64,000 nucleotides of DNA from assembly GCA_021464415.1 (NCBI GenBank), contig CM038467.1, positions 28,451,248-28,515,247 on the forward strand, written 5' to 3'. Source of the stretch: Lonicera japonica (lineage: Eukaryota; Streptophyta; Magnoliopsida; Dipsacales; Caprifoliaceae). The notes below the pieces were generated by a model, which saw nothing but the letters and a program-made list of their open reading frames with translations, was not told where the DNA came from and made no database searches. This document shows, in pieces, positions 17,653 through 35,552 of the stretch (within the stretch, counting starts at the first letter, position 1; every line of letters begins with the position of its first letter). A program made the translations under genes and the position numbers.

Positions 17653-18833
17653 TGTGAGAATCTGCAAATGCGACCCCCGGGTCTCGATCCCGTTCTTGGG
17701 CGTCTGAAACTTCAAAGAGGATTCCGTCGTTCCATTTTGCTTCTATTGGTTGATAATTCATATCAAGTGTCCCTATGTTCTATTTCTAGATGCAAGAGGG
17801 TTCATTCAGAGTCGCCAGTACGTTTTACGAGAAAATGGACAAAACTGTTGTGTAAGAGAAAAGGCTACAGATAAGCCTTTCTTTACACGTTTGTCTACGA
17901 AACCAGGATTCTATAGGATTCGGGAACTATATTACGGTTTGGGAAGGTGTTAAGCACCCATTCCGCCCTTTCGGTCTCTAGTGGTCTTATATGTTTATTT
18001 CATGTTGAAAAACTTGGATGCTTTTACTGACAGTCTACTACTTTCCAAGTGAAAACCCTAATTTCTGGGGAAAACGGGAAAAGGATGAAAAAACTTTTGT
18101 GTTCCAAGATCCAATTTTTTCTTTTGAAAAAATGTAAATACAAGTGAGAAAGGTTGTTTTATTTCAAAGAGAGTTTTTCGTATTATTTCTCGGATAATGA
18201 CGGTTTTTCTCGGGTTTTAGCTTCTCTTGAAAAAGTACAGATCTTGTATCGGGACTAATTTAATATGGAATTAGAACTCTTGAGGGGAGTTCTACCAAAC
18301 ATATCACAGTCTATAAAAGAGATAGGATATACCGGGTTTTTAATTCCTAAGTAAGTTTTACCGGTCCGGGTTTTGAAAACAGAATTTTATCCGGACGATA
18401 ATGTACTTACTCTTCTAGTTTTGCAAATGATTTTATCAGGGTCTTTTGTTTTGAAAATAATAGACTATTTGTAACTTGGCAATAAGTTTATTCAGATAAA
18501 ACGTGGACAAAACAACAGAAATAAAACAAGTACACAGATATTTAATGTTAAATACTAGAAGAGACTTTCTTTACCTTTCCGACGAGAATAATAATAAGAA
18601 AGAAAATATAATACGGCAGAGAGATCTTCGGCGATAATAATCTTTTCCTTCTTCAGATATTTTCGAGAATTTGATTCCAGAGACGGGACACGTCGAGTGT
18701 CGAGAATAGATTCGATAATTCTTCAGAACTAAGACGATAATCGAGAATGCTTGACGAAAGACTATAAAATCAGATATAAGCCAATAATTCTTCAATCCCT
18801 AGTCGTTGCTTTGAACCCTTGGGGGTGTTGGCC

Positions 18834-18841
18834 TATTTATA
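18834..18841 (-). promoter_or_regulatory. TATA box of the Tat 3' LTR
   Basis: TATAAATA on the minus strand, in the context GCAGTATAAATAGGCC, 16 bp downstream of the nearest palindrome. The same sequence is present in the other LTR at 35201-35208, where it would drive the genomic RNA. Confidence 0.75.
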
Positions 18842-18856
18842 CTGCTCGGGGAAGAT

Positions 18857-19043
18857 TGTTGCGCGACATTTCCCCAGAAAGGGCAAGTGTCACGCGACAA
18901 TGTGTACCATGTCGCGCGATAAACAGCTGAAGTGATGTTTCTGACAGACTGATGTGTCAGAGAGTGGATGGTCTGGTGTCAGAAGGGTTTGTCGCACGAC
19001 ACAAGGGGAATTGTCGCGCGACATACCCATTTGTCGTGCGACA
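18857..19043. promoter_or_regulatory. six TGTCGCGCGACA-type palindromes in the left LTR
   Basis: Sites start at 18857, 18888, 18910, 18990, 19012 and 19032. One is perfect (19012); the others differ at one position, mostly C-to-T or G-to-A. Start spacings are 31, 22, 80, 22 and 20 bp. All lie upstream of the LTR TATA box in element orientation. Confidence 0.9.
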
Positions 19044-19185
19044 ATTCCTCTTAAAAATAGGTTTGTTTGGCCAACAAACCCTTTCGGGGCAGTTTTGGGT
19101 GCTCGGGTAGGTCCCAGACTCCAGAAATAGTATTTCTCGAAGGTCGTTAGGGTTCTTGCGGGGGTCACAGATCGGGGTGTCTACA

Positions 19186-19230
19186 GACCCTCTCGACTCA
19201 AGCTCCTTGCTCCCGCAAGAACTCTAAGGA
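19186..19230 (-). promoter_or_regulatory. probable polypurine tract region of the Tat element
   Basis: Read on the minus strand, the bases before the 3' LTR are GTCGAGAGGGTC, with GCGGGAGCAAGGAG slightly upstream. Purine-rich but interrupted, so the exact primer is uncertain. Confidence 0.45.
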
Positions 19231-19299
19231 AGTGTGTGTTATGCAAACGTGTTCGTGAATGCCTCCGAAGAGGGCTTGTGTTACCTTATTGCCTCTTTC

Positions 19300-19832
19300 G
19301 AGGACTTTCATTTGCTCCACTTGCCTCAGATGGGAGGACTACCATTGTTCCACTCACCTCAGATGGTAGGACTACCATTGCTACACTTTGCCTCTCTGGG
19401 AGGGCTTTGTTCTTCTCGCCTCATGTGGGAGAACTACCATCGCTACACTGTGCCTCTCTGGGAGGGCTTTGTTCTTCTCGCCTCAGGTGGGAGGACTACC
19501 ATTGCTACACTGTGCCTCTCTGGGAGGGCTTTGTTCGTCTCGCCTCAGGTGAAAGAACTACCATTGCTCCACTGTGCCTCTCTGGGAGGGCTTTGTTCGT
19601 CTTGCCTCAGGTGGGAGGACTACCATTGCTCCACTGTGCCTCTCTGGGAGGGCTTTGTTCTTCTCGCCTCAGGTGGGAGGACTACCATTGCTCCACTGTG
19701 CCTCTCTGGGAGGGCTTTGATCTTCTCGCCTCAGGTGGGAGGACTACCATTGCTACACTGTGCCTCTCTGGGAGGGCTTTGATCTTCTCGCCTCAGGTGG
19801 GAGGACTACCATTGCTACACTATGCCTCTCGA
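19300..19832. repeat. 62-bp minisatellite next to the 3' LTR
   Basis: The word GGGAGGGCTTTG recurs at 19398, 19460, 19522, 19584, 19646, 19708 and 19770, exactly 62 bp apart. The flanks (19320-19390 and 19790-19832) hold shorter, partial units. Two + strand frames stay open through it and give repetitive peptides (GRALF.SPQVGGLPLLHCASL). A length not divisible by three makes a protein role unlikely. The array lies between the 3' LTR and the antisense genes. Confidence 0.95.
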
Positions 19833-20563
19833 GGTTTAAACTTTATCCGGATGTCCGTTTTCCCGTATCTTTCTGAAGTTTTACTCTCATGTTTTCCTCG
19901 AGTGGAGATATTTCTCTTAGAAAGCTGTTTTCGGATTTCTTTCGCTCTTCGCAGAGTGATGATTCGAGATTTTTTTAAACCATCTCTTCTGTATCGTGCT
20001 GAAAAAAAAATTTGTTTGAAAGTTCAATCTCTGACCTCTGTTATCTTTTTAGTTCTCACTTTTGGCGGGCCCACATCGTTTTCTGTTTTTTGATGCCCTT
20101 ATTTCTCCCTCTTTTTGGGAAAGACTTTTTCCGGTCTTATCTGTTTTTGACCAGGGGTCTTTTTATCCCTTGGTTGTGATCAGGAGCCTTACTCACCCAA
20201 AACGAAGCCCTGAGCCGGTTTTGGCCTATCTGTCACTTTTGGTGTGGCTCTCCGTGTCACTCTACTTTTTCGTTTCTCTCGCTCGCTCTGGGCGCTCATG
20301 CAGGTTCCTTCTCTTTTCTACTATTTTAATTTTTTCTATTCCCGTCTTGCTCTGATATTTTGCTTTTCCCATAGATGGTTTTTTGGAGATTAGAGATTAC
20401 TTTAACCGTTGTATTTTGTTCTCGCATTTTTCGAAGAGATGGTTGGAAGTCTTTTCCTTGAATTTTCATCATGGGTGTGCGGTACTCAGAAAGGTTTTCG
20501 AAAACTGTTTCTCAGAAGCATTCCTGCATGAGAGAAAAAATGAGACAAAGGTCAAAAACAAAA
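19833..20563. other. spacer between minisatellite and antisense-gene promoter
   Basis: T/C-rich on the + strand. ORFs at 20062-20355 and 20383-20646 are open but have no recognisable domain and run into the palindrome region; they are left out as genes. Confidence 0.4.
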
Positions 20564-20646
20564 TGTCGCGTGACATCTCGGTGGAGGGGTGTTTGTCGCG
20601 CAACAATGAGCCTGTTTGTCGCGCGACAAACTTATCCACTATATAA
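20564..20646 (+). promoter_or_regulatory. promoter of antisense gene 1: three palindromes and a TATA box
   Basis: Palindromes TGTCGCGTGACA (20564), TGTCGCGCAACA (20594) and TGTCGCGCGACA (20617) are spaced 30 and 23 bp. TATATAA follows at 20640-20646, 12 bp past the last site. A C/T-rich leader (CTCTCTCTAG type) runs to the ATG at 20785. The same motif then TATA order occurs in both LTRs and before antisense gene 2. Confidence 0.75.
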
Positions 20647-20784
20647 GCCCCTTGCTGAGCTCATTCCACCTCATTCTCTCCTTTCTCTTTCTCTCTCTAG
20701 CTCTCTTTCTCTCTTCTCCCAAGCGCGAAAGCCCTGCCGCTTTTCTGATTTTTCTGACTTTCTCACTACTCCCCTTATACACAG

Positions 20785-23700
20785 ATGGACCCTGCTCAAC
20801 CCGATAGACTGGAGGGTGACCAGGAGGAGGTCACCTTTACTGATGCTCAGGGCGTTCTCCGGTGCAGCCCTCATCATGACAACTAGGCGGACCTCAACTG
20901 GTATGGCGAGGATGGGGTGGACCGCGGTCGGGCAGTGGTCTACCGAGACGTCACCCGGGCTGCTCCAGTCCCGGATGTTCCGTGGCTCTTGATGGAGCCT
21001 GTTTCTCATGAGATCCGTCGACGGTCTCTGGTATGTTTTCCTGAGATTCCTTCCTTTTGTGTATTTATCTGTTATATTATTTCTGTCGTTTCCTGCATGT
21101 ATTTGAAACAATGTTAGTATCCATGTCTGCTTAGAAATAACGTCCAATTTAGTGAACACATACTTTTACTTGTGATACCCTTTAGGTTTGGAAAATTACA
21201 TATTATACCCCTATAGCCCTATAACTCTCATAATTACACCAAAATACCCTCAGGTTTGGAAAATTACATAATTTACCCCTATAGCCCTATAACTCTCATA
21301 ATTACACCAAAGTACCCTCAGGTTTGGTAAATTACATAATTTACCCTTATAACCCTATAACTCTCATAATTACACCAAACTACCCTCAGGTTTGGAAAAT
21401 TACATAATTTACCCCTATAGTCCTATAACTCTCATAATTACACCAAAGTACCCTCCGGTTTTGGAAAATTACATAATTTACCCTCATACCCCTATAACTC
21501 TCATAATTACACCAAAGTACCCTCAGGTTTGGAAAATTACATAATTTACCCTTATAACCCTATAACTCTCATAATTACACCAAAGTACCCTCAGGTTTAG
21601 AAAATTATATAATTTACCCCTATAGCCCTATAACTCTCATAATTATACCAAAGTACCCTCAGGTTTTGGAAAATTATAAAATTTACCCCTATAGCCCTAT
21701 AACTCTTATAATTACACCAAAGTACCCTCAGGTTTTGGAAAATTACATAATTTACCCTCATACCCCTATAACTCTCATAATTACACCAAAGTACCCTCAG
21801 GTTTTGGAAAATTAAATAATTTACCGTCATACCCCTATAACTCTCATAATTACACCAAAGTACCCTCAGGTTTCTTATATTTATATTTCTGTTTTGTCTG
21901 TAGTGGGTCGGCCGAGGTTGGGGTTCTCCGAACACTATTTCCTTAGAGTGGCGACAGGCACCGGCCCCTGTCCAGGAGTTGCTCCTTACGACTCTATTTG
22001 GTCCTCTTTTTGATGCCCTCCCGAAGCTGGTATCTAGGGCGGCTGTGTTGGTGTCGGCTCTAGCCTGCCACTGGTGGGACACCACTCATACCTTCCACTA
22101 GAGCTGGGGGAGATGACGATGACCCCCTCAACTTATTTGTTTTGACCGGGATTCCTTCAGGGGGTCCCTATACAGATCGATATCCCCTTGCGTCTGACGG
22201 CTGAGGGCATTGTTGGCGCATTTGGATGGTTCCCGGAGAGACGGAGTTCTGGTGATACGACCCCTCGGGCGGTTTTAGTTACGCGCCTGGTTACAGAGAG
22301 AGCCCGTTTAGTTGCTTTCAGGGTGCCGATAACCCGACAGGAGGCGCGCCAGTATGCCCGTGTCCTTCTCTTGCTGACGTTTCACGACTTGTTCGAGGCC
22401 CGTGGGGGGGATACATCCCATCTCTGATGGCTGCCTTATCTTCGTGATTTCAGCATTATGTTCGATTACGACTGGGGTGGCTTTATTCTGGCTGTCTTAT
22501 ATGATGCTATGGACCAGGTTTCTCGCCACTTAGCCCTGAACCTCAAGGGCTTTTCTTTGCTGTGGGAGGTACATACTTCTCGTCCCTTATCTGTGTTTTT
22601 GGTCTTTGCATTTTATCTGCTGATTGTTGCTAATGTTCTTTATGTCTCCTTTTCAGAGTTGGTTTGTGGCTTATACCCGTCTGGGTCGCGCCCAGGTGGA
22701 TCTCCTCGTTGAGAACGAGGATCAGTTTCTCTTTCTTCGCTGATTTATTGCGGGGAACTATAGGGCTCCCTATGTATACCGAACTTGGGAGACCGGAGCT
22801 GCTGCCGTCCACGACCTGCTGGAGGAGCAGGTAAATATCTTAGCATTTTTTTAAATAAATAGTAAAATAGAATATAAATAACTGAAATAAAATTTTGTTC
22901 TCTTTTAGATTGAGTGGGCCCCCTGGGGTGATCTGGGTCTCCACTTTGGATATGGCCATGCTCTGACCGCCTCGAGGACCAGGCGGCTTATCAGGGATGA
23001 GTACAACCTTCACTTCTATTTGGGCGAAAGGGTTGTTCGTTAGCATACACCGGCCCAGTGGCCCCGAGTTCCTTTGTTTCCATCAGTTCTGATGAGGTGA
23101 ACGAGTGAGATCGACCCGGTGATGGTGCAAGCGTTGGTCGACGGGCTCGATTTTCAGACGTTCACCGAGGAGGGATATTATCCTGTCTTCGCTGCCCGTT
23201 ACTTGATGAGGGAGCCAAAGGAGACTCGGGGACGGGTTTTCTACGAGAGATACCAGGCGTTGGGAGGAAATCCCAACTATATACAAGGACAAACTTATTT
23301 GTCCAGGATGGTCCCCGGTCATCTGCCACCTATCCCTGATCAGAAGGACAACATTTTGGATTCTGACGATGATGACCCCGAGGGAGAGAGGGGTATCCCT
23401 GCTGCTGTTGAGGGAGGTGATGGTGGGCCTGAGGGTGGTGATGACAGACCCGAGGGTGGTGAGGGAGGTAGGACAGCGGCGGTTCCTGAGCAGCCGCCTC
23501 AGATGACACCCATGGAGGAGCAGAGCGCTGAGGGTTTTGAGTTTCTGTTGGTATCTCCAGGGGTCATTTTTTATGCTGCTGAGGCTGCTGAGAGAGGGGG
23601 AGCAGCTTTGTCTGAGCGGTCCTGGGAGCCTGAGGACTTCGGGGTCGATTATGAGTAGTTTGGGCGGACCCCTTCTACTGCTACGACCACTCCTTCTAGC

Positions 23701-24487
23701 GGGTTCCCGCCTCTGAGAGCGACGGCCGTTGTGGATCCTCCGGGCGTCCATACTTATGCTACTCTGACTCTGCTTCCGTTGACTGCTATGGGCCCTCTGG
23801 CCCGTTTTCTAGGTCTCGGGGGTTCTTCTTCCCGGCCTCCTCTGTTCTCGATTCGTGAGGAGGGTGGGTCCACTTCTGCGGTGGTACTGGCGGGTCCATC
23901 TGTTCCTCTAGTTGACATCCCACCCTTCCTCGGGATATTTCCTATGTTGGTGCCGGTCTTCGCCGCTATACCGTGCCCAAGTATCCTTTACCCAATGATA
24001 CTTTTGATTATCTGGGCGGCCGCGTGGGTGACGAGGTATGTCCTTTTATGTATTCTTCCGTTCTTTTATATATGTTTATCTTAAAAGTATGCTAATTCCC
24101 TCTCTTATGTCTTTTGCAGCGGATGAGTGTTCGTGCAGCAGATTTGAGAGATCTCCACGTCCAGTACCTCTACAGCTGGAACCTCCTCCAGTTCGTTAGT
24201 GAGACCCCACGGCATACATGCGCGATTACCAGAGGGCGATCGACATATCTCTTCAGGTGGATGACCCTCTGTCCTCCTCTCGCGCTCAGTCAGGGTTTCA
24301 AATGAGTAGTAACCGGACCTCTAGGCGTTCACGGTCCTCAGTGATTCGCCCTACAGTTCTGGTTCAGTCGACGGGGCCCTCTCAGGCAGCAGTTCCTTCT
24401 TATTCAGATGTCCCAGCGGTCGATCCTACTCCAGAGGAGGGTTCGGGTGACAGTGGGAGCGTGTTGAAGCGCGCCCGGATAGATTAG
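20785..24487 (+). pseudogene. antisense gene 1 of the Tat element: spliced plant-mobile-domain-like protein, decayed
   Basis: The + strand reading, opposite to pol, starts at ATG 20785 (MDPAQPDRLEGD) and ends at TAG 24485-24487 (KRARID). Segments such as WWDTTHTFH, then GEMTMTP and VLTGI, resemble the plant mobile domain (PMD, aminotransferase-like family) found in plant transposons. Four introns with GT-AG ends are inferred because coding sense continues across them: 21031-21903, 22569-22656, 22831-22908 and 24036-24119. A gly/glu-rich stretch lies at about 23370-23470. Breaks seen: TAG at 20884 in exon 1, TAG plus a one-base loss near 22100, and further stops near 22740 and 23042. Known Tat/Retand elements carry an antisense ORF here; its role is unknown. 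A 68-bp minisatellite fills intron 1. Confidence 0.7.
21177..21870. repeat. 68-69-bp minisatellite in intron 1 of antisense gene 1
   Basis: The word CCCTCAGGTT (one copy CCCTCCGGTT) recurs at 21247, 21315, 21383, 21451, 21520, 21588, 21656, 21725, 21794 and 21863: spacing 68 or 69 bp, about ten units plus a divergent first unit at 21177. Each unit reads GGTTTGGAAAATTACATAAT then TTACCC and CCCTATAACTCTCATAATTA. The minus-strand ORF 21597-22085 only reads the repeat. Confidence 0.95.
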
Positions 24488-24810
24488 CTTTTCTTTTCTG
24501 TATTTAGTTAGTTCAGACAGATATGTAATTATCTTTAGACATTTAGACAGATATTTTAGTTTTGAAAACTATCCTTTTATTAAATTTATGAAAAATCTTT
24601 ATTTGTGTTAGTGACGTATATTTATTCCTTATCTGTGAAAGATATATTTATATGAATCAGTGATTTAGGTGTCATACCTTGTAGCGCGGTTGTACTTAGG
24701 GTTCCTACAAAAAAACAAAGTGAGAACAAGAATGCATTCAGAAGTGATTCTTCTGGCAAAAATGACTCCTATATGTGAGAAAGGCAAAAACAGGGATACG
24801 GAAAGAGGAT
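24488..24810 (+). other. spacer between the two antisense genes, probable 3' end of gene 1
   Basis: AT-rich. Possible polyadenylation context lies around 24580-24600 (TTATTAAATT, ATGAAAAATC). No ORF is supported; the frame at 24669-24890 runs through the next promoter. Confidence 0.4.
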
Positions 24811-24893
24811 TGTCGCGCGACAATCCCTCCTGGATATGGGTTTGTCTCGCAACAAACAGGTACAGGACCCTCTTCTTTTTTTTGCTATAAATA
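24811..24893 (+). promoter_or_regulatory. promoter of antisense gene 2: two palindromes and a TATA box
   Basis: A perfect TGTCGCGCGACA starts at 24811 and a degenerate TGTCTCGCAACA at 24843, spacing 32 bp. TATAAATA lies at 24886-24893 and the ATG of antisense gene 2 at 24932, a plausible short leader. Confidence 0.7.
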
Positions 24894-24931
24894 TACCCCT
24901 CTGCCTTCCTTCATCCCCACACCTTCCCAAA

Positions 24932-26189
24932 ATGTCTTCTTATCGTACAAATTCTGACTTTTCTTATATTGAAGCCCGAGATGCTCTAATATCTTCTGAG
25001 AATGGCTTGAACTTTGGTGCATTCAGTCCTTTGGCAGGATGGTGCCATCGTCTTGTAGATTTTTCCTTTTTGTTAGGTGCTTTGTATTTTTGGAGCCCTG
25101 CGGATCATCTTTTCCGTTTTGGGCTAGATGAGTTATGCCCGACTTATGAGGATTTTTTTTGGCTGTTGCGTTCTGATGTTCGTCTCCCGATGGCTGTTCT
25201 CATAGAATAGATCGGTCCTCGAGATATGCTGATTGCTCTGTTAGCCATTCCTCAAGTGGCCTGTGATGGTTTTATTATTGACGGGATTCTTGATCTCCAC
25301 AAGATGGTGAGGTTTTTCCATTGTTATGAGGACAGAGCTTCTTATAGCGTAGGGCGTACTGCGGCGGCCTTGATCTGTCTTTTTTCGATATGCTACTGGT
25401 GACGGGCTCTTCCCGTGTCAATCCGACTATCCTGGGTTTGATTTATCATGCTAGGAATGGGGAGTCTATAGTGCCCATCGTTCTTGTAGAGACTCTGAAC
25501 AGCCTAGATGATCTTCAAAGGGGAGCTTCACCCTTTTTCAGGGGAAGTCCGCGTTTGCTATACATGTGGCTATTGGAGTGTTTCCGATCGGTGGGTTTCA
25601 ACAGGGTTCGGCTTGACAACCCGACGCACTTCTTTTGTCATCCCCTCTTTTTGGTGCCTTGACCATGTCTTCCTCTGATTGGTTGGTGTGGTTTTTGAAG
25701 AATTTTTGGGCTATTCGGTGGAACATTCTTTGGTGGAAGCTGAGGGCGATAGTGCTTAGTACCGGGGGGCAGAATTACGTTCGACTCCGTGGGCTATGAT
25801 TCAATTCCTTTTATCTCACAGGACGTCTTCTTCGGCAGTTCAACGTTTCTTAGGACATCCCTCTTGGCCTGAACAACTTCTCTTCTGAGTCTAAGTTTGT
25901 GACCCAGCATGTTTCTTTATCAGTGGAGAGAATGTGGCGTGCTCGACTGACTCGTTAGTTCAACTATGCTCGTTTTGGTATTTCCAGGACCCTCCGGGCT
26001 GACATCATCCGTTCTCGTTGGGGATCTCTGAAAGGGGAGCTGATTGATGATCCCTTGCAAATGGAGTGGTTCCGGTTTATGGATTACGAGCCCACAGAGG
26101 AGGGTATTGTCTTTGCGTACCAGATCCTGGATGAGGCTAGAATATATTTGGCCACGGAGGACCCTGCTTGGCCAACCTCTAGGGATTAG
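24932..26189 (+). pseudogene. antisense gene 2 of the Tat element, decayed
   Basis: ATG at 24932 follows a TATA box. The N-terminal part (NFGAFSPLAG, ALYFWSPADHLFRFG, DELCPTYEDFFWLL) resembles the N-terminal domain of a family of plant transposon-associated proteins that I believe is catalogued as DUF7745; this name is from memory. It continues with a TAG at 25208-25210, changes frame near 25390 (MLLVTGSSRVNPTILG, then LIYHARNG), and ends in the third frame at TAG 26187-26189 (YLATEDPAWPTSRD). At least two frameshifts and several stops make it a pseudogene. Its 3' end faces the 3' end of pol (26409) across about 220 bp, so the two transcripts converge. Confidence 0.6.
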
Positions 26190-26408
26190 GTTTTTCTATA
26201 TGTTGTATCTCCTTTGTAACTTCCGGTGTTCTGAACCACCTAAATAATATACGAAGGACTGTTTATGAAAAATAAATTTCTTTATAATATTTAAACCGGG
26301 CCTGAAGTCACTTCTCAGGTTGCCTACGTTCCCCCTTTTGATTTTTCAAAAAACACAATTTTGAGTTGGGGCTCAGGTTTACGTAGTTCTTATCTATACA
26401 TGCTACAT

Positions 26409-26702
26409 CTATTGGTAATACTTCTTCAGTCGATCCATGTTGACTGGTGAATGCAGTAATTGTCCGTCCAAGTCTGTGAGTATGGCAGCACCCCCTGTGT
26501 CGATCTCTTTGACGATGTATGGCCCTGTCCACTTCTGTCCGAACTTTTCCCTTGGGTCTCTGGCTGGCTCTCGAATTTTTTTCAACACGATGTCGTTCTC
26601 ATTAATACCCCGAGTTTTTACTTTCTGGTTAAATGCTCGAGCAATTCTCTTCTGATACCTTTGGTGGTGGTACGCGGCTCTCAGTCTCTTTTCATCTAGC
26701 AA
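26409..26702 (-). pseudogene. Tat integrase C-terminus (GPY/F module)
   Basis: A 97-codon frame holds KFGQKWTGPYIVKEI, the GPY/F module that ends gypsy integrases, and closes with a basic tail. It is in a different frame from the integrase core at 26743-27291, so one indel near 26740 separates them. The first ATG here is internal, not a true start. Confidence 0.85.
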
Positions 26703-26742
26703 GGCCAGCTCGTTATAACGTGCTTGGACCCATTCCAGCTCA

Positions 26743-27291
26743 TTAACTTGATTCTCTAGTAATACTCTGAGGGGGGACTTCTAATTCAATAGGAAGGACT
26801 GATTCCATCCCGTATGTAAGGGAAAATAGGGTTGCCCCGGTGGAGACCCTCTCGGTGGTGCGGTATCCCCAAAATGCATATAGTAATTTTTTCGACCAGT
26901 CTCGACAGGTGTCAGTCATCTTGCTTAGGATATTCTTTAGATTCTTGTTGACGGCCTCAACTTCCTCATTGGTTTGTAGTCTATATGGCGAAGATCTGTG
27001 TCGGGTAATACCGTATTCCTCTATGACTGTATTAGCCTCTCCTTCGAAGTGAGTGCCGTTGTCCAAGATGATCTCGTGTGGGACCCTATACCGGTAGATG
27101 ATATTCCTTCTGATGAATCGGGCAACTTTCCTGGAGTCAAAAGTTTGGAAAGACTCGGTCTCTACCCATTTAGTGAAGTAGTCGATGGCTACTAGTATGA
27201 ATTCATGGCCGTTACTGGCTTTGGACGAAATCTTCCCAATGATGTCGATTCCCCAGGTTGTGAAAGGCCAGGGAGTAGTCATGTTGTACAA
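26743..27291 (-). pseudogene. Tat integrase catalytic core
   Basis: A 182-codon frame. The DDE residues are recognisable: D in WGIDIIGK, D in LDNGTHFEG, and E in NEEVEAVNK 35 residues later. The base context around the second aspartate is LDNG where SDNG is usual. The frame is the same as RT-RNase H (27805-29352) but separated from it by stops in the zinc-finger region at 27292-27804, where H..H and C..C residues (GPHMSGH ... RRCHKC) can still be read. Confidence 0.9.
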
Positions 27292-27804
27292 CTCTTTTGG
27301 AGGAAGTTTTTGAGATTTAGCATAGATTTGGCACTTGTGACAACGGCGTACATGGTTAACGCAGTCGTTCTGCAGGGTAGACTAATAATAACCTTGTCTG
27401 ATGATTTTGTGGGGAAGCGTATGGCCGCTCATATGAGGTCCACAATCCCCCCCGTGTATCTGATCCATCATTTTGATAGATTCTTCTTCAGTGAGGCATT
27501 GGAGATGGGTCCCGTCGTAGTTCCTCTTATACAGCCTTCCGGCACAAAGTATGAATCAGGATGCTAATCTCCTAAGTGTGACCCGCGTTCTCTTGTCTGT
27601 TCACTCGGGATACTGGTGATTTTTCAACAGGTTCCAGATGTCGTAAAACCAAGTGGTTGAGTCCCCATTCTCTTCATTCCCTACCTCAAGGGCCATGCAG
27701 TGTGCTGGTCCTAATCTTCTTTGTACTGTAAGAGTGATTTCTTCCATCCCCTTCAGGATATCGATCATGGATGACAGAGTTGCTAGTGCGTCAGCAAAAC
27801 TATT
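27292..27804 (-). pseudogene. end of RNase H and integrase zinc finger, with stops
   Basis: The minus-strand frame continues from the second RNase H (NSFADALATL, near 27800) through a linker to the HHCC integrase zinc finger and joins the core at 27291. Several in-frame stops are present. The + strand ORF 27205-27567 is the shadow of this segment. Confidence 0.7.
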
Positions 27805-28581
27805 TTATGACCTGGGGACATAGTAAAACTCCGAATGCTCAAACCTTCCTACGACATCCTCCAGCCGGGCAAGGTAAGGGACTAACTTTTCATCTCTGAT
27901 CTTCCATTCCTTCAGAACTTGGTGGACCACTAATGCTGAATCTTCGTACACTTGGATTCTTTTTATACCCCTTTGAAGCGCAATCTCTAATCCGATTATA
28001 CAGGCTTCATACTCGGCCATATTGTTGGTGCAGAAGAAGTCTAGACGATATGATATCGGGGAGTGAGTTTGGTCTGGGGAGACTAACAGGATGCCTATCC
28101 CGTTCTCGTTTTGGTTGGCGGCCTTGTCAAAGTATAATTTCCAGTCTTCATTGATCTCAACATTCATGATAGTTTCATCTGGAAACTCGGCTTCTTCCAA
28201 CATGTCCCCCAATATTGGATTGTGGGCTAGATAGTCAGCTATGATCTTACCTTTGACTGCCTTCTGGGTCATGTAGGTGATATCGAATTCGGAAAGCAAG
28301 AATAACCACTTTGCCATACGATTTGAGAAAGCCGGTTTCTCGAAGAGGTATTTCAGCAGATTAATTCGTGATGCCAGGATGACCGAGAAAACTAGCATGT
28401 AATGCCGTAGTTTCTGTGTTACCCAGAGAAGAGCGGTGCATGATTTTTCCAATGGCGTGTAGTTTATCTCAAATGGGGACAGTTTTTTGCTGATGTAGTA
28501 GATGGCCTGTTCTTTCCGTGTATCGGTCAGATGTTGGGCTAGCATGGCCCCCGCAGCCGAATCAATGACGGTTAGGTACAT
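27805..28581 (-). pseudogene. Tat pol: RNase H followed by a second (archaeal-type) RNase H
   Basis: A 258-codon frame. The first half is the gypsy RNase H (IDSAAGAMLAQ, ..IYYISKKL.., LEKSCTALLW). The second half is an additional RNase H: LYFDKAANQNENGIG, CTNNMAEYEACIIGLEIAL, then YEDSALVVHQVLKEW, giving D, E and D positions. In most relatives the third is GDS; here it is EDS. Two RNase H domains in tandem are diagnostic for the Tat lineage. Same frame as the RT upstream. Confidence 0.9.
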
Positions 28582-29574
28582 AATTAGTGGCAGCCCGGTC
28601 TGTGGTGAGGCTAATACTGAGGGGTTGGAGAGGTAGTCTTTGATTCTATCAAAAGCCTCATGGCATTGATCATCCCATTTTCCTGGTGAAGACTTCCTCA
28701 GGAGTTTGAAGATGGGTTCGCAAGTCTGAGTGAGCTGAGAGATGAACCTGCTGATGTACTACAAATTACCCAAAAATTCCCGGACTTTTTTCTCGGTGCG
28801 AGGCTCGGGCATTTCTCGGATAGCTCGAACCTTGGCAGGGTCTACCTCGATTCCCTTTTTGCTGACGACATAGCCCAGGAGTTTTCCCTTGGTTACCCCG
28901 AATACACATTTTCGCGGATTGAGTCTCATCTGGTACTAGCGGAGTCGGTCAAAAAAGGCTCGTAAGGCTGGTACATGGCCTTCCCTCTCCTTTGACTTGA
29001 TTATCATATCGTCCACATATACTTCAACTTCTTTATGGATCATGTCGTGAAAAATAGCTGTAGCTTCCCTCTGATATGTTGCCTCGGCATTCTTCAGCTC
29101 GAATGGCACAACGGTGTAGCAATATGTTTCCCATGACGTGATAAATACTGTTTTCTCTTGGTGATCTGGGTGCATCTTGATCTGATTATACCCGGTGAAA
29201 CCGTCCACGAATGACTTCAAAGCATGGTTAGCGGTATTATCTACTATCAAATCAATGTTGGGTAATGGGAAATTGTCTTTTGGGCAAGCTTTATTGAGAT
29301 CTCGATAATCTACACACATGCGGACCTTCCCATTTGCCTTTGGAACGGGCACAATATTGGCTAACCATGAAGGGTATTCGATCAGTCACAAGAACCCCAC
29401 ACACTCAGTTGTTTCATCACTTCTTCTTTTACTTTCAGGGACCATTATGGCGTGAGCTTCCTTAATTTCTGCTTGATGGGTCTAAACTCCGGCTTGGTGT
29501 GTATCTCGTGCATGACTATCTGGCTATTCAAACCTGGCATATCGGCATAGGACCAGGCAAAGACATCCACGTAC
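28582..29574 (-). pseudogene. Tat reverse transcriptase, interrupted by stops
   Basis: The best part (29352-28936) shows VRMCVDYRDLNKACPKDNFP, FVDGFTGYNQIKM and the catalytic YVDDMII. Here the YVDD aspartates are intact. Downstream, the same frame continues through the thumb with a stop just after RAFFDRLR (28936-28938) and another near 28758, to the RNase H at 28581. Upstream, 29353-29574 has frame disruptions. Non-functional as it stands. Confidence 0.88.
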
Positions 29575-29979
29575 TCATTCAATGAATTCCTCTCTTTCTG
29601 TCTCACTTAAACTTGCCCCAATACGGACCTCTTTCCTTTCCTCTTCCGTCCCGAGGTTAATCACAAGAGTATCTCCCTCCTCGCTTTGTATGCGATGTTC
29701 CTCCCACTCAGGGTGTTCATTTAATCTTTCTATTTCCATATAAGTAATTACATAATCAAAATTAACAGGATACCGCAAAATAGAGTCTTCTTTATTAATA
29801 ACAGTGCTTACAGGTATAAGTTTGAAAAGTAAATCTAGGAGAGACTCCTTCTTAGCCCTACCCTCGCTCTTATCTCTTACCCTTATAATTTTACTCTTTC
29901 TCCCCTTTTCCTGGTAATCTGGATCAGCGTGTATTAAGTGTACATGGTCGTCCCTTGGCTCATCATCCCCTAGAGCCAT
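29575..29979 (-). pseudogene. Tat pol N-terminal region before RT
   Basis: A 134-codon frame (MALGDDEPRDD.., ending RIGASLSETEREEFIE). The ending is typical of the linker leading into Tat RT (INLGTEEERKEVRIG...). It stops at TGA just before the RT. It carries no catalytic motif of its own. Confidence 0.7.
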
Positions 29980-30038
29980 GACGTCGAAGAGATCTCCTAT
30001 TATTTCTTCCTCTTTATCTTCTTATCTCGGCCAGATCG

Positions 30039-31241
30039 TTAATTTGGTAGAGAAGCTGTGTATAACATTTTTCTTGAGATAAAGGTCCTCTTCATAGAAG
30101 ATTTCCCATCTTGGAAGGTTATCTCCGTCGCTATTTCTCCAAGGCTCCTAAAAGCCGCAAAAGGGGAAGTCCTCTCATTCCTTGATGAAAAATCCGTTAA
30201 GAGAGCTAAAACTCGGATACTGATGTCCTTGACCCCTTTTCTCTTGGTGACTTTTTCGGTGTGTTGGTACCCCAACCCTTCTCTTTCATGCCTCGTCACT
30301 GGTTTTAAGGCCTGCAATAATCCTGGCTGTCCTATTCCCAGACTAGCTCTAGGTAAATATTTCATCATTCTCAGCATATTTATGATTTTGGTACTGAGAC
30401 CGGGGATATTATCAGGGGGTAGGTACTCAATTCTCTGGACGGTGAGGGCTTGCACTTGAGGCTTGTAAGAAAAGCCTCCCAGCTGTATGCTTTGACTCCC
30501 GATGCCCAAAACAGGTAATTCTAAATCCACCAAAGTCCTTTCAGGATCTCCTTGGATGGTGATTATCTTCCCTTCAAACGGTATCTTGATCTTCTGGTGT
30601 AAGGAGGAGAGGATGGCTCCTATGTCGTGTAGCCATGCTCTTCCCAACATGAGGTTAAAACTGGAGGGAATGTCTATGATTTGAAAGTCGGCCGAAAAGT
30701 TCCTGGGACCGACCATGAGATCGAGCTTTAGAGAACCCAGAACGGCTCTCCTAGTGTTGTCATAGGCCCTGACGGTTACAGCTGATGGAGAAAGCTCTGA
30801 ATCTAAGATACCCAGACATCTGGCGGTCTTCAAAGGGCATACATTTATGGTTGACCCATTGTCAATGAGGACTTGTGGCAGAATTTTTTCTCGGGTCCGG
30901 ACAGTAATATGGAGGGCTAGACTGTGTTTCTTTCCCAGTGGAGATAAGTCTTCATCTAAAAATGACAGACTTCTTTGGACTGTAAGTGACCCAATCATGT
31001 TTGGCAGTTGTTCTGGCGTGGAATCTGGTGATATGACGGCCTCATCTAGGAGTTTGATGAAGGCGGTCCTGTGAGGTTTGGAGGCAACTAGGAGACCCCA
31101 AATGGTGATGTGTGCTTGGGTTTTCTTCAACTGTTCCAATACTCGATCCTCTCCTACTTCCTTAGGATGAGGTGTTTTCTCGGCATCCATTGGTGGTGGC
31201 TGATATACCCTTCCTGAACGCGGGTAATTTGCTCTATCCAA
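30039..31241 (-). pseudogene. Tat protease region (gag-pro)
   Basis: A 400-codon uninterrupted frame, the longest left in the element. The retropepsin-like active site reads VLIDNGSTINVCPL in place of a canonical DTG/DSG, a variant common in Tat elements. The flap and second half follow (DIPSSFNLMLGRAWLHDIGA). The N-terminal 100 residues are linker (HPKEVGEDRVLEQLKK). It is in a different frame from gag. The start shown is the first ATG, not necessarily the polyprotein junction. Confidence 0.8.
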
Positions 31242-31465
31242 AGGGATACTGGGTCTGATTCCTCTAAGGCTTTCGACGATTCTGGTTCCACCGACTAACT
31301 AAAAGTTTTGGGGGAGGTCTCTGTCATACAGATTGTCTCTTTGGGAAAGCCTCGGGGCCTCCATGGTTGTTCCTTCTTATCCTGAGTCTATCCTATCCCA
31401 GATTTTCCGGGATTGGTTTTGATTGTAAGTGGTTGTGAGATCCCCTGATTGGCCTTTCCTAACCC
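31242..31465 (-). other. gag-pro junction, broken
   Basis: A short stretch with stops in all useful frames between the gag zinc-knuckle segment and the protease frame. Confidence 0.4.
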
Positions 31466-33502
31466 CTACCCGGGTAGGAAGTTCATCTTAGCCATCCATT
31501 GGTCAATTATCGGATTGAGGCCTGGGGCAACTTGAATTCTTTTTGGCGGCACAGCTGGTGACTTGTAGGCTGGGTCGTCTCGAATGAGTCCCACGGGATC
31601 AAACCCTTCTTCATTTGTGGTCAAGGTGTTAATTCTCGCAGGTGGAGCATGGTTGGGAAAGGAATTGTTAGTAACATTGGGCCCACCGGGTGCGAGAATG
31701 GTACCAGCCTCGATTAGGTCTTGGATACGATGGCGAAGAGCCAAACAGCGTTCCGTGTCATGGTCCGCGGCCTGATGGTATGCACAATTCTCATTCATTC
31801 TCTAGGTCCTGGGAATAGGGTTTGGTGGGGGGCGTGGGTTGAGTGGAGTGATTAATCCAGCCTTTCGGAACAGTTCCAGGCTTTTGACCAGGGTAGTGGG
31901 AAGGGTGCAGAAGTTTCTCCTTTTCTTAACCTCGGTGCTCGAAGAGTCTCTTTGTGCGGGCCAACTCATCGGAGGTGCTTGTTGTGGCTGTTGAAATGGG
32001 TTTTGTTGATATGGGTATGAGCTTAGTTGGTTTACGGCTGGAGTGGCCGTCTTTCTCCCAGTGTATGAGGCTTTCTTGGTATCGGTCTTTGCCTTCTTGG
32101 CCAGCTCTTCCTCTACTTGTGATCCCATGCTTAACAGGGCTCTGAAGTGTGGGAATACATGCTTTCCTATGCAACTCAATACGGCGGGAGTGAAATTCTT
32201 CTGTATGATCCCTAACTGTTCTTCCTCATCGGGTCGCTTGGACATTTGGGAGGCCATCTCTCTCCAGCGTGTGACGAAATCGCTGAAGCCTTCCTTTTCG
32301 CCTTGCTTGGCCATTTCTAGGTGTTTGCGGGTAATTTCCAAATCTTCGTTGGACCCGTATTTATTCATGAACTCCTTGACGATATCTCCCCAAGTCTTTG
32401 TGTGGTGTCTCTCTAAATCGAAAAACCATCTCAGGGCGGCCCCCGTGAGAGTCATGTGAAAGGCCTGAGCCAACTCTGGTTCTCCGCAACCGGACACTTA
32501 CATGGATATGATATAGGATTGTAGGTGAGTTTTCGGGAGTGTGGTTCCTGTGAACTTGGTGATGGAAGGGAGCTTGAATCCTTGGGGTAGTCTTGCTTCG
32601 GGGTAGAGGGAGAAAGCATTCATATCTGTAATCTCGTCTGCTCCTTTTATTAAAGAAATCCCCCTCTATAGAATCTTCATCTGCTCTTTCAGTTTTTTCA
32701 TTTCTTCACTCTCTCTTGACACCTCGTCAGGCTGTTCCCAAGCTATAACCGATTCTGCATACACTGCCCGAAGTCGATGGATGTCTGGGTACTCATTAGG
32801 AGGGGCTACTGGGGCCAGGGGTGGAATAAGCCATGCGGGAACTTGTGGCCATGGTTGGTACTGAGGCTCAAAACCTTGTTGGGGTTGGGGCCAAATGATG
32901 GGTGGCTCTTGTTGTTGATAAGTGGGGCCTGAATCAGGGGCCCATTGATTCTGGTTGTTGGGATCGGTCTAAACAGGACCGGCTATGATGGGGCCCGTTT
33001 GGGGTGGATTGGTTCCTTGGACTGGGGGAAGCACTTGTGATGACTGCCCTTGATTCTAATCTCGATTCGGTGGTAGCCGTTCAAATCCCGGTGGTGCGGT
33101 TTGTTCGGCTGACAACTCTTCTACTCGGACTCGGGTACTCTGTTGCTCGGTTGTGAGGCTTGCTAGATTCTTGCTGACGGTCATAAGTAGACGATGCATC
33201 TCGGCTAAGGTTGGCTGAGCTGTAGATGCCTCGGCTAGATTCTGATCCATTTTTTGATTCTCGCGTCCATTGGCCATTGCGGGTGTGCTTGGTCTTACTA
33301 ATCTTCCATTATGATCTCGACCGGCCCAACCTTCCAGACTGTCGTTTGTTTCACGGCTGTAGACAAAACCACGTGGCGAAGATGAAGGAAGACTATGAGA
33401 CGACTCGATTTTTGCCAAAAGAACCACTAAAAATCGCCGAGAAAAGGCTCGGGTTTGTAAAGTAAGCCGTAAGGTGATACATCCCCTATGGCTGTTTGAC
33501 AA
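31466..33502 (-). pseudogene. gag: Tat gag, one frame with several stops
   Basis: Three segments share one minus-strand frame: 33502-33056 (N-terminal linker, with a predicted helical part AEMHRLLMTVSKNLASL), 32497-31802 (capsid core: LTGAALRWFFDLERH, TWGDIVKEFMNKY, GFSDFVTRWREMASQM) and 31798-31466 (Cys/His cluster CAYHQAADHDTERCLALRH). Between them, at 33055-32498, proline/glutamine-rich linker and capsid start remain readable with stops, the last just before VSGCGEPEL near 32500. The capsid matches the retrotransposon gag family. The + strand ORFs in this interval are shadows. Confidence 0.85.
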
Positions 33503-33999
33503 GTGTTTTTAGCCGACTCGATCTTATATGCAGCGCGGGTGTACGAATGGTTAAGGCTTCAGGCTCCCTCCTATTTGGCAAGACCTTGCGATATACCCTA
33601 GGGGCGGGTACGTGCAAGAGCCTTTTGATATACTTTCCAGGTACGTGAGTGTTCTCGTCACTCGATATACCTCGGGGGTATACTTGGCCAAGGAGAGTGG
33701 AAGTAAATACTTTTGGTTTATGTTGGCCCAAGCAAGCCAACTCTCTACTCACTTATAATACTTCCGAGGGTTTGGGATAAATTCACACTCGTAGAACCAA
33801 TGCATGATTTGTGAAAGTGCGTGCAAAGTTCGAAAGGTTGGGTTTAGAAATATCATTATCTTTATTACGTATTTTTGAAAACTTTTATTCTTTAGAAAAA
33901 AGTTTCTTCTCAATCAATTAATATAAGTAGGGAAAGCAGTAAAAGAAAGTATTCAACAAATAAACAAAAGTCCACATATAAGAGCCTAGTTTTCTACCT
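33503..33999 (-). other. 5' leader of the Tat element
   Basis: Between the primer-binding site and gag. No supported ORF; the minus-strand frames at 33486-33752 and 33918-34127 have no recognisable domain. Packaging signals cannot be identified by eye. Confidence 0.5.
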
Positions 34000-34017
34000 T
34001 CCCCAGCAGAGTCGCCA
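34000..34017 (-). promoter_or_regulatory. primer-binding site of the Tat element
   Basis: On the minus strand TGGCGACTCTGCTGGGGA, 18 bases, one base inside the 5' LTR. Its complement ends GAGTCGCCA, as the 3' end of a tRNA with CCA. Tat/Ogre elements commonly use tRNA-Arg; the assignment to Arg is from memory. Confidence 0.85.
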
Positions 34018-35200
34018 CTGTGAGAATCCGCAAATGCGACCCCCGGGTCTCGATCCCGTTCTTGGGCGTCTGAAACGTCGGAGAGGATTCCGTCGTTCCA
34101 TTTTGCTTCTATTGGTTGATAATTCATATCAAGTGTCCCTATGTTCTATTTCTAGATGCAAGAGGGTTCATTCAGAGTCGCCAATATGTTTTACGAGAAA
34201 ACGGACAAAACAGTTGTGCAAGAGAAAAGGCTACAGATAAGCCTTTCTTTACACGTTTGTCTACGAAACTAGGATTCTATAGGGTTCGGGAACTATATTA
34301 CGGTTTGGGAAGGTATTAAGCACCCATTCCGCTCTTTCAGTCTCTAGTGGTCTTATATGTTTATTTCATGTTGAAAAACTTGGATGCTTTTACTGACAGT
34401 CTACTACTTTCCAAGTGAAAACCCTAATTTCTGGGGAAAACGGGAAAAGGATGAAAAAACCTTTGTGTTCCGAGATCCAATGTTTTTGTTTTGAAAAAAT
34501 GTAAATACAAGTGACAAAGGTTATTTTATTTCAAAGAGAGTTTTCCGTATTATTTCTCGGATAATGACAGTTTTTCTCGGGTTTTAGCTTCTCTTGGAAA
34601 AGTTTGGATCTTGTATCGGGACTAATTTAATATGGAATTAGAACTCTTGAGGGGAGTTCTACCAAACATATCACAGTCTATAAAAGAGATAGGATATATC
34701 GGGTTTTTAATTCCTAAGTAAGTTTTACCGGTCCGGGTTTTGAAAACATAATTTTATCTGGACGATAATGTACTTACTCTTCTGGTTTTGCAAATGATTT
34801 TATCAGGGTCTTTTGTTTTGAAAACAGTAGACTATTTGTAACTTAGCAATAAGTTTATTCAGATAAAACGTTGGCAAAACAACATAAATAAAACAAGTAC
34901 ACAGATATCTAATGTTAAATACTAAAAGAGACTTTCTTTACCTTCCCGACGAGAATAATAATAAGAAAGAAAATATAATACGGTAGAGAGATCTTTGGCG
35001 ATAATAATCTTTTCCTTCTTCAGATATTTTCGAGAATTCGATTCTAGAGACGGGACACGTCGAGTGTCGAGAATAGATTCGATAATTCTTCAGAAATAAG
35101 ACGATAATCGAGAATGCTTGACGAAAGACTAGAAAATCAGATATAAGCCAATAATTCTTCAATCCCTAGTCGCTGCTTTGAACCCTTGGGGGTGTTGGCC

Positions 35201-35208
35201 TATTTATA
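35201..35208 (-). promoter_or_regulatory. TATA box of the Tat 5' LTR
   Basis: TATAAATA on the minus strand, identical to the other LTR, 16 bp downstream of the nearest palindrome. Expected to direct genomic RNA towards lower coordinates. Confidence 0.75.
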
Positions 35209-35223
35209 CTGCTCGGGGAAGAT

Positions 35224-35410
35224 TGTTGCGCGACATTTCCCCAAAAAGGGCAAGTGTCGCGAGACAATGTGTACCATGTCGCGCGACAAACAGCTGATGT
35301 GATATTTCTGACAGACTGATGTGTCAGAGAATGGATGGTCTGGTGTCAGAAGGGTTCGTCGCGCGACACAAGGGGGATTGTTGCGCGACATATCCATTTG
35401 TCGTGCGACA
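35224..35410. promoter_or_regulatory. six TGTCGCGCGACA-type palindromes in the right LTR
   Basis: Starts at 35224, 35255, 35277, 35357, 35379 and 35399, the same order and spacing (31, 22, 80, 22, 20 bp) as in the left LTR. The sites that are perfect differ between the two LTRs (35277 here, 19012 there), so single-base decay has been independent while spacing is unchanged. Confidence 0.9.
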
Positions 35411-35552
35411 ATTCCTCTGAAAAATAGGTTTGTTTGGCCAACAAACCCTTTCGGGACAGTTTTGGGTGCTCAAGTAGGTCCTGGACTCCAAAAACAGTAT
35501 TTCTCGAAGGTCGTTAGGGTTCTTGCGGGGGTCACGGATCGGGGTGTCTATA

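Follow-up and report, generated by a model that had tools for sequence, protein, structure and literature searches.

The stretch of Lonicera japonica DNA analysed here (the window: 64,000 nucleotides, positions 28,451,248 to 28,515,247 of the forward strand of contig CM038467.1, assembly GCA_021464415.1) contains a long terminal repeat (LTR) retrotransposon on the minus strand. Two genes in antisense orientation are placed between its pol region and its 3' LTR, and 12-bp palindromic sites occur upstream of the TATA boxes of the LTRs and of both antisense genes. The coordinates of these features are given in Table 1.

A Tat retrotransposon with two antisense genes

Pfam domains were found on the minus strand of the element in the order gag, reverse transcriptase, RNase H, additional RNase H and integrase. 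The order of the last four domains is the one that is given for Ogre and Retand and that defines the Tat lineage of Ty3/gypsy (PMC6317226; this and the other papers cited here are referred to for excerpts). The window element belongs to this lineage (Ogre/Retand type). The two LTRs differ by 68 mismatches in 1533 aligned columns, and the bases flanking the element (CACTT and AACTT) are identical at four of five positions. The sequence that follows the 5' LTR presumably resembles the 3' end of tRNA-Arg. The window copy is broken: stops split its reading frames, including those of both antisense genes.

Antisense gene 1 is, as judged from its profile match, a plant mobile domain (PMD) protein gene: the copy of the relative L021 passes the curated PF10536 cut-off (58.3 against 34.9 bits, E=9.6e-16), and the window piece 22428-22709 matches below it (18.2 bits, E=0.0016). 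A PMD-containing extra open reading frame, which is an Ogre feature, is present here through gene 1 of L021. The Retand feature, Transposase_28 (PF04195), was absent from the Pfam hits of the window antisense pieces and of the relatives L033 and L021. The introns of gene 1 were assigned by eye from GT-AG signals. A tandem array with a unit of about 68 bp (21108-21740) lies within its putative first intron, and another, with a unit of about 62 bp (19283-19892), lies between the gene-1 promoter and the 3' LTR.

Antisense gene 2 stays below the PF10536 cut-off (P0001, 24.7 against 34.9 bits, E=1.6e-5). Among 12 gene-2 relatives, three matched PMD and four matched DUF7745 at E <= 0.01. A profile comparison of gene 1 with gene 2 gave no significant likeness, so that the kinship of gene 2 with PMD proteins rests on weak matches; its assignment as a divergent PMD relative is weakly supported. 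In a protein database search, gene 2 was matched best by a protein of Lonicera macranthoides, at 96% identity.

Codon comparisons, from which stop codons were omitted, indicate that both antisense proteins are under purifying selection. For gene 2, the ratio of non-synonymous to synonymous divergence (dN/dS) was 0.04-0.25 in all 28 pairs of eight copies (188-230 codons), at a synonymous divergence (dS) of 0.19-0.92. For gene 1, the region compared was the PMD exon piece, running slightly into intron; dN/dS was 0.07-0.14 in nine of the ten pairs of five copies, and the tenth, a close pair, gave 0.49 at a dS of 0.045.

Table 1. Coordinates in the window of the retrotransposon, its antisense genes, 12-mer sites and TATA boxes
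Feature	Position	Strand	Remarks
3' LTR	17653..19185	-	
TATA box of 3' LTR	18835..18841	-	
Six 12-mer sites	18857..19043		upstream of 3' LTR TATA box; spacings 31, 22, 80, 22, 20
Second dyad TCTGACA-N8-TGTCAGA	18940..18961		inside 80-bp gap of 3' LTR array
Three 12-mer sites	20564..20628		before antisense gene 1; spacings 30 and 23
TATA box of antisense gene 1	20640..20646	+	
Antisense gene 1, predicted PMD protein	20785..24487	+	stops interrupt window copy
Two 12-mer sites	24811..24854		before antisense gene 2; spacing 32 bp; second site with 2 mismatches
TATA box of antisense gene 2	24886..24892	+	
Antisense gene 2, divergent, possibly PMD/DUF7745-like	24932..26190	+	stops interrupt window copy; end approximate, borrowed from 418-aa frame of relative L033
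Integrase piece	26746..27381	-	PF00665
RNase H, then additional RNase H	27808..28758	-	PF17917 at 57-158, PF13456 at 222-317 of piece
Reverse transcriptase piece	28939..29385	-	PF00078
gag piece	31805..32497	-	PF03732
5' LTR	34019..35552	-	
TATA box of 5' LTR (sense promoter)	35202..35208	-	
Six 12-mer sites	35224..35410		upstream of 5' LTR TATA box; spacings 31, 22, 80, 22, 20

Distribution and spacing of the 12-mer sites

The 12-bp palindrome TGTCGCGCGACA was matched at 17 places in the window with up to two mismatches, against 0.48 expected and a maximum of 3 in 100 shuffles. These sites form four clusters, each upstream of the TATA box of one of the promoters of the Tat element. A first-pass annotation of the window had reported six sites per LTR, three before gene 1 and two before gene 2, and the same numbers and start spacings were obtained here. 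It had also placed such sites before every TATA box of the element, on both strands. This holds for the four boxes located at promoters (two LTRs, gene 1 and gene 2), which have a site within 60 bp upstream, and fails for the other 13 of the 17 TATAWAW strings in the element. Finally, the two LTRs were said to keep one spacing while their individual sites mutated separately. The spacing is indeed identical and single sites have diverged separately, 6 of 72 site positions being different between the LTRs (62 of 1460 elsewhere), but TGTCGTGCGACA, found at 19032 and 35399, occupies the same place in 13 of 17 aligned LTRs and hence is not a private mutation.

The host assembly from which the window was taken (886 Mb) contains 49,456 places with up to one mismatch to the 12-mer, compared with 219 for the reversed pattern; a chance origin of the sites was rejected on these counts and on those of the window. 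All of the 70 exact 12-mers among the matches listed (contig 1, first 5.62 Mb) lie inside this retrotransposon family: 67 of them are contained in or adjoin a direct BLAST hit to the window element (60-bp margin), and the other three have hits to the same LTR on either side. The 12-mer is a trait of the family and not of the window copy alone.

Since loci seeded by the 12-mer necessarily contain it, an independent search was seeded on the gene-2 protein. It yielded 2,801 first-look candidates and 150 scored places, the best 30 of which were fetched, one being the window copy. Sites 31-32 bp apart were present in all 30, most of which are close copies of each other (two sites in 5 loci, three in 25), and the TATA box lay 37-43 bp past the start of the last site. 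Eight further gene-2 promoters were hand-picked from 102 scored hits obtained with P0003, a 34%-identical relative: seven have two sites 32 bp apart, and one (L061) lacks the segment bearing both sites. In L060, a relative of L061, this segment is bordered by short GCACAG repeats.

Altogether, two or three sites upstream of the TATA box were found in 37 of 38 gene-2 loci, window copy included. Gene-1 promoters were examined in the window and in five copies seeded by the motif, and all six carry three sites, at 30-31 and 23 bp; this is a weaker check, since apart from the window copy they owe their selection to the motif. Relatives without sites in the internal promoters were what the first-pass annotation had named as grounds for abandoning its proposal of a common factor. 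One search for relatives in viral contigs gave none, and another gave 16 stretches, none of which was confirmed.

The geometry of the LTR arrays was compared in an alignment of 17 LTRs, two from the window and the remainder motif-seeded. An array has 4-9 sites, the differences between arrays being modules of 20-22 or 31-34 bp, whereas the distance between the TATA box and the first site is 23-24 bp in all 17. Adjacent spacings below 60 bp fall, in 158 of 158 cases, in 20-23, 30-34 or 42 bp, and their phase for a 10.5-bp repeat has a mean of +0.2 bp (R = 0.87). The rows are kin by descent, and this statistic is therefore descriptive, not proof. The long gap of the arrays, 80-81 bp in 16 cases and 72 bp in one, is off phase in its 80-81 bp form. 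In 14 of the 17 LTRs the second dyad, located in this gap, agrees with the window on both arms; it is changed on both arms in L027 and broken in two. L009 and L027 (contig 1, about 1.005 Mb) represent a more diverged LTR with an eight-site array (spacings 22, 20, 72, 31, 22, 20, 20), in which order and spacing of the sites are unlike those of the others, yet the helical steps are retained.

Conservation of the sites and their possible function

Conservation in relatives, a check proposed in the first-pass annotation, was scored for the internal promoters; the site columns were chosen by motif match, which biases the comparison in favour of the sites. In the six gene-1 promoters identity was 95.7% in sites and 73.2% in spacers and near flanks (78.7% for everything outside). 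The corresponding values for gene-2 promoters were 97.3% in sites versus 90.2% in spacers and near flanks for 32 distinct sequences, and 92.2% versus 82.4% for nine diverged copies. Site-masked spacers were also compared among the three promoter types, and five of six comparisons were not above shuffles. Sites set in spacers without clear homology look separately kept, rather than derived from one recent duplication. The recent copying of one LTR module into the internal promoters was rejected on the same comparisons, one of which gave an uncorrected p of 0.014.

These results lead us to propose that TGTCGCGCGACA may be a dimer-binding operator, through which a helically phased factor would switch the LTR promoter and the two antisense genes as one regulon. 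We give this reading about even odds (a probability of roughly 0.5). Several molecules of the factor, whose binding to the sites we infer, would line up along a single face of the helix at intervals of two or three turns, close before the TATA box, and would switch the sense gag-pol transcript together with both antisense genes. The most economical reading appears to be that one dimeric factor occupies phased arrays at the three promoters, including the two that belong to protein-conserved genes. The common factor suggested in the first-pass annotation, which could govern transcription in both the sense and the antisense direction, is well supported by the anatomy (palindromes upstream of TATA boxes, helical spacing, conservation and purifying selection); this support does not extend to the antisense proteins being that factor.

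The common factor is perhaps encoded by the element itself, as the product of one or both antisense genes, which would explain both why the sites are restricted to the family and why the antisense genes would be under their own control. The PMD-type protein or proteins would then recognise the palindrome both in the LTR and in the promoters of the antisense genes themselves, in an autoregulatory loop activating the element or shielding its CpG-rich arrays from silencing; we put this forward tentatively, as something short of probable. Since lineages that went on transposing have retained the sites, we favour an activating or protective role, autorepression being possible too.

Several observations weigh against a shared operator or against its recognition by the antisense proteins. 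Between the two LTRs of the window, CpG differences affect 5 of 17 positions in sites and 13 of 57 outside, and non-CpG differences 1 of 38 and 49 of 1350, respectively: after insertion the sites get no protection. It follows that single insertions decay and that the sites are retained in the lineages still transposing. The comparison of gene 1 reversed with gene-2 spacers, the one of the six that stood above shuffles, leaves room for shared descent. The gene-2 copy L061, in which the frame of the hit is open, has neither site. The palindrome is identical in every copy compared, which leaves coevolution of operator and protein without contrast. Pfam recognised no DNA-binding domain in either antisense protein, and the structure prediction for gene 2 (12-sequence alignment) had a mean predicted local distance difference test score of 46.9, making the fold unusable.

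The main rival explanation, which we consider unlikely but by no means negligible, is a host transcription factor that binds as a dimer to TGTCG/CGACA half-sites and is recruited at all three promoters, the antisense proteins acting otherwise. LTRs often recruit host factors. Moreover, upstream of the Transposase_28 gene of the outgroup locus L059 there are two single palindromes, GTCGCCACGTGGCGAC (L059:2003-2018) and GCTGTCGACAGC (2044-2055), the former with the TGTCGC...GCGACA arms of the operator around CACGTG; this likeness may be due to chance, and this upstream region, in a locus that does not reach an LTR, has no repeated 12-mer. The finding that all 70 exact sites listed belong to the family, with none in an ordinary promoter, speaks against a host factor, within a sample of 5.6 of 886 Mb and with the reservation that such a factor could tolerate looser sites. 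In addition, the PMD-dependent DOWN motif of Arabidopsis (CATGCAGTTT at MORC1) differs from the palindrome. We know of no plant factor with this exact site, the auxin response factor and CAMTA motifs being those compared.

An action of the arrays through their CpGs (as unmethylated islands, by methylation sensing or by nucleosome placement) and not through a specific sequence would fit the three CpGs of each site and the CpG observed/expected ratios, which are 1.15 in the LTR array, 1.51 in the gene-1 array and 1.23 in the gene-2 array, versus 0.71 in the whole element. Sirevirus boxes define CpG islands as well (PMC2829016). Such an action is improbable: across 176 site contexts (198 distinct minus 22 with three mismatches) conservation is highest, at 97-100%, in the outer TGT and ACA and lowest, at 89%, in the central CG, which argues for sequence recognition rather than CpG content alone, and the spacing of the sites is helical. 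Functionless inheritance by common descent and array slippage would fit the common ancestry of the copies, the gain and loss of entire modules and the free decay of sites after insertion. We regard it as very improbable, given that sites are kept while substitutions build up in adjacent spacers and at synonymous positions (dS up to 0.92) and that three promoters carry the same site amid mostly unlike spacers. Least credible of all is a role of the sites in RNA, in reverse transcription or in packaging. In its favour, the genomic RNA carries a transcribed U3 at its 3' end and the second dyad is altered on both arms in L027; identical sites, on the other hand, lie upstream of the TATA boxes of two antisense promoters, and a 12-bp palindrome without a loop forms a poor hairpin.

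Relation to known systems

Repeated-motif boxes with a suggested regulatory role have been described in Sirevirus, of the Ty1/copia superfamily (Bousios et al. 2010; PMC2829016). Like the sites described here, they are clustered, palindromic and CpG-rich and precede both the TATA box of the LTR and an internal gene (ENV), so that the principle is already known in another superfamily. Sireviruses are Copia elements with a CGG-CCG core in 12 of the 13 motifs listed in the excerpt and with ENV in sense orientation, whereas the present element is a Gypsy Tat element (reverse transcriptase-RNase H-integrase order) in which the core of the motif is different, two genes are antisense and the spacing is tightly helical. 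In the VANDAL/VANC anti-silencing system, which is characterised by a protein that binds the motif and lowers DNA methylation, the target of the transposon protein is a short motif specific to the family and arrayed in the non-coding DNA of the element itself (PMC5735166). That is a DNA transposon (MULE), with a non-palindromic motif in tandem repeats and proven binding, in contrast to arrays known, as here, from sequence.

Retand has antisense Transposase_28 genes with a proposed regulatory role (PMC11963269), and gene23 of Grande is antisense with a promoter of its own (PMC7264820). The antisense genes are of the Transposase_28 type there and of the PMD type here, and the excerpts describe for them no operator in common with the LTR. 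The PMD domain is reported in 57% of Ogre elements, the same domain as here; the excerpt describes no operator or target DNA for it (PMC6317226). The Arabidopsis PMD proteins MAIN and MAIL1 affect motif-sharing promoters and transposon silencing (PMC7156037, PMC9899485); it is on their DOWN motif that the contrast with our palindrome rests, and the contact of PMD with chromatin is given there as unknown. Transposon PMD proteins have been suggested to be counter-silencers (PMC8616336).

In the open literature, searched by titles and abstracts (subscription papers and preprints apart), operators shared by sense and antisense promoters were not described for a plant retrotransposon, the Sirevirus precedent aside, and the exact 12-mer appeared in one paper, on a chicken gene. 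Three features are new within this literature: sites common to sense and antisense promoters, three in all; a tightly helical spacing; and the association of the sites with two conserved genes of PMD type.

No function has been proven for the antisense genes of Tat elements, and the mode of action of plant PMD proteins is described as largely unknown (PMC11963269, PMC8616336). The palindrome is a candidate DNA target for transposon-encoded PMD proteins; with its 12 bp, its tens of thousands of copies and its phased arrangement at three promoters, it makes the PMD question open to direct testing. If the regulator is encoded by the element, retrotransposons would have their own equivalent of VANC, and a transposon-encoded PMD protein would have a DNA target. 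These findings suggest that, in some LTR retrotransposons of plants, expression relies on a small regulon of sense and antisense promoters and not on a lone LTR promoter.

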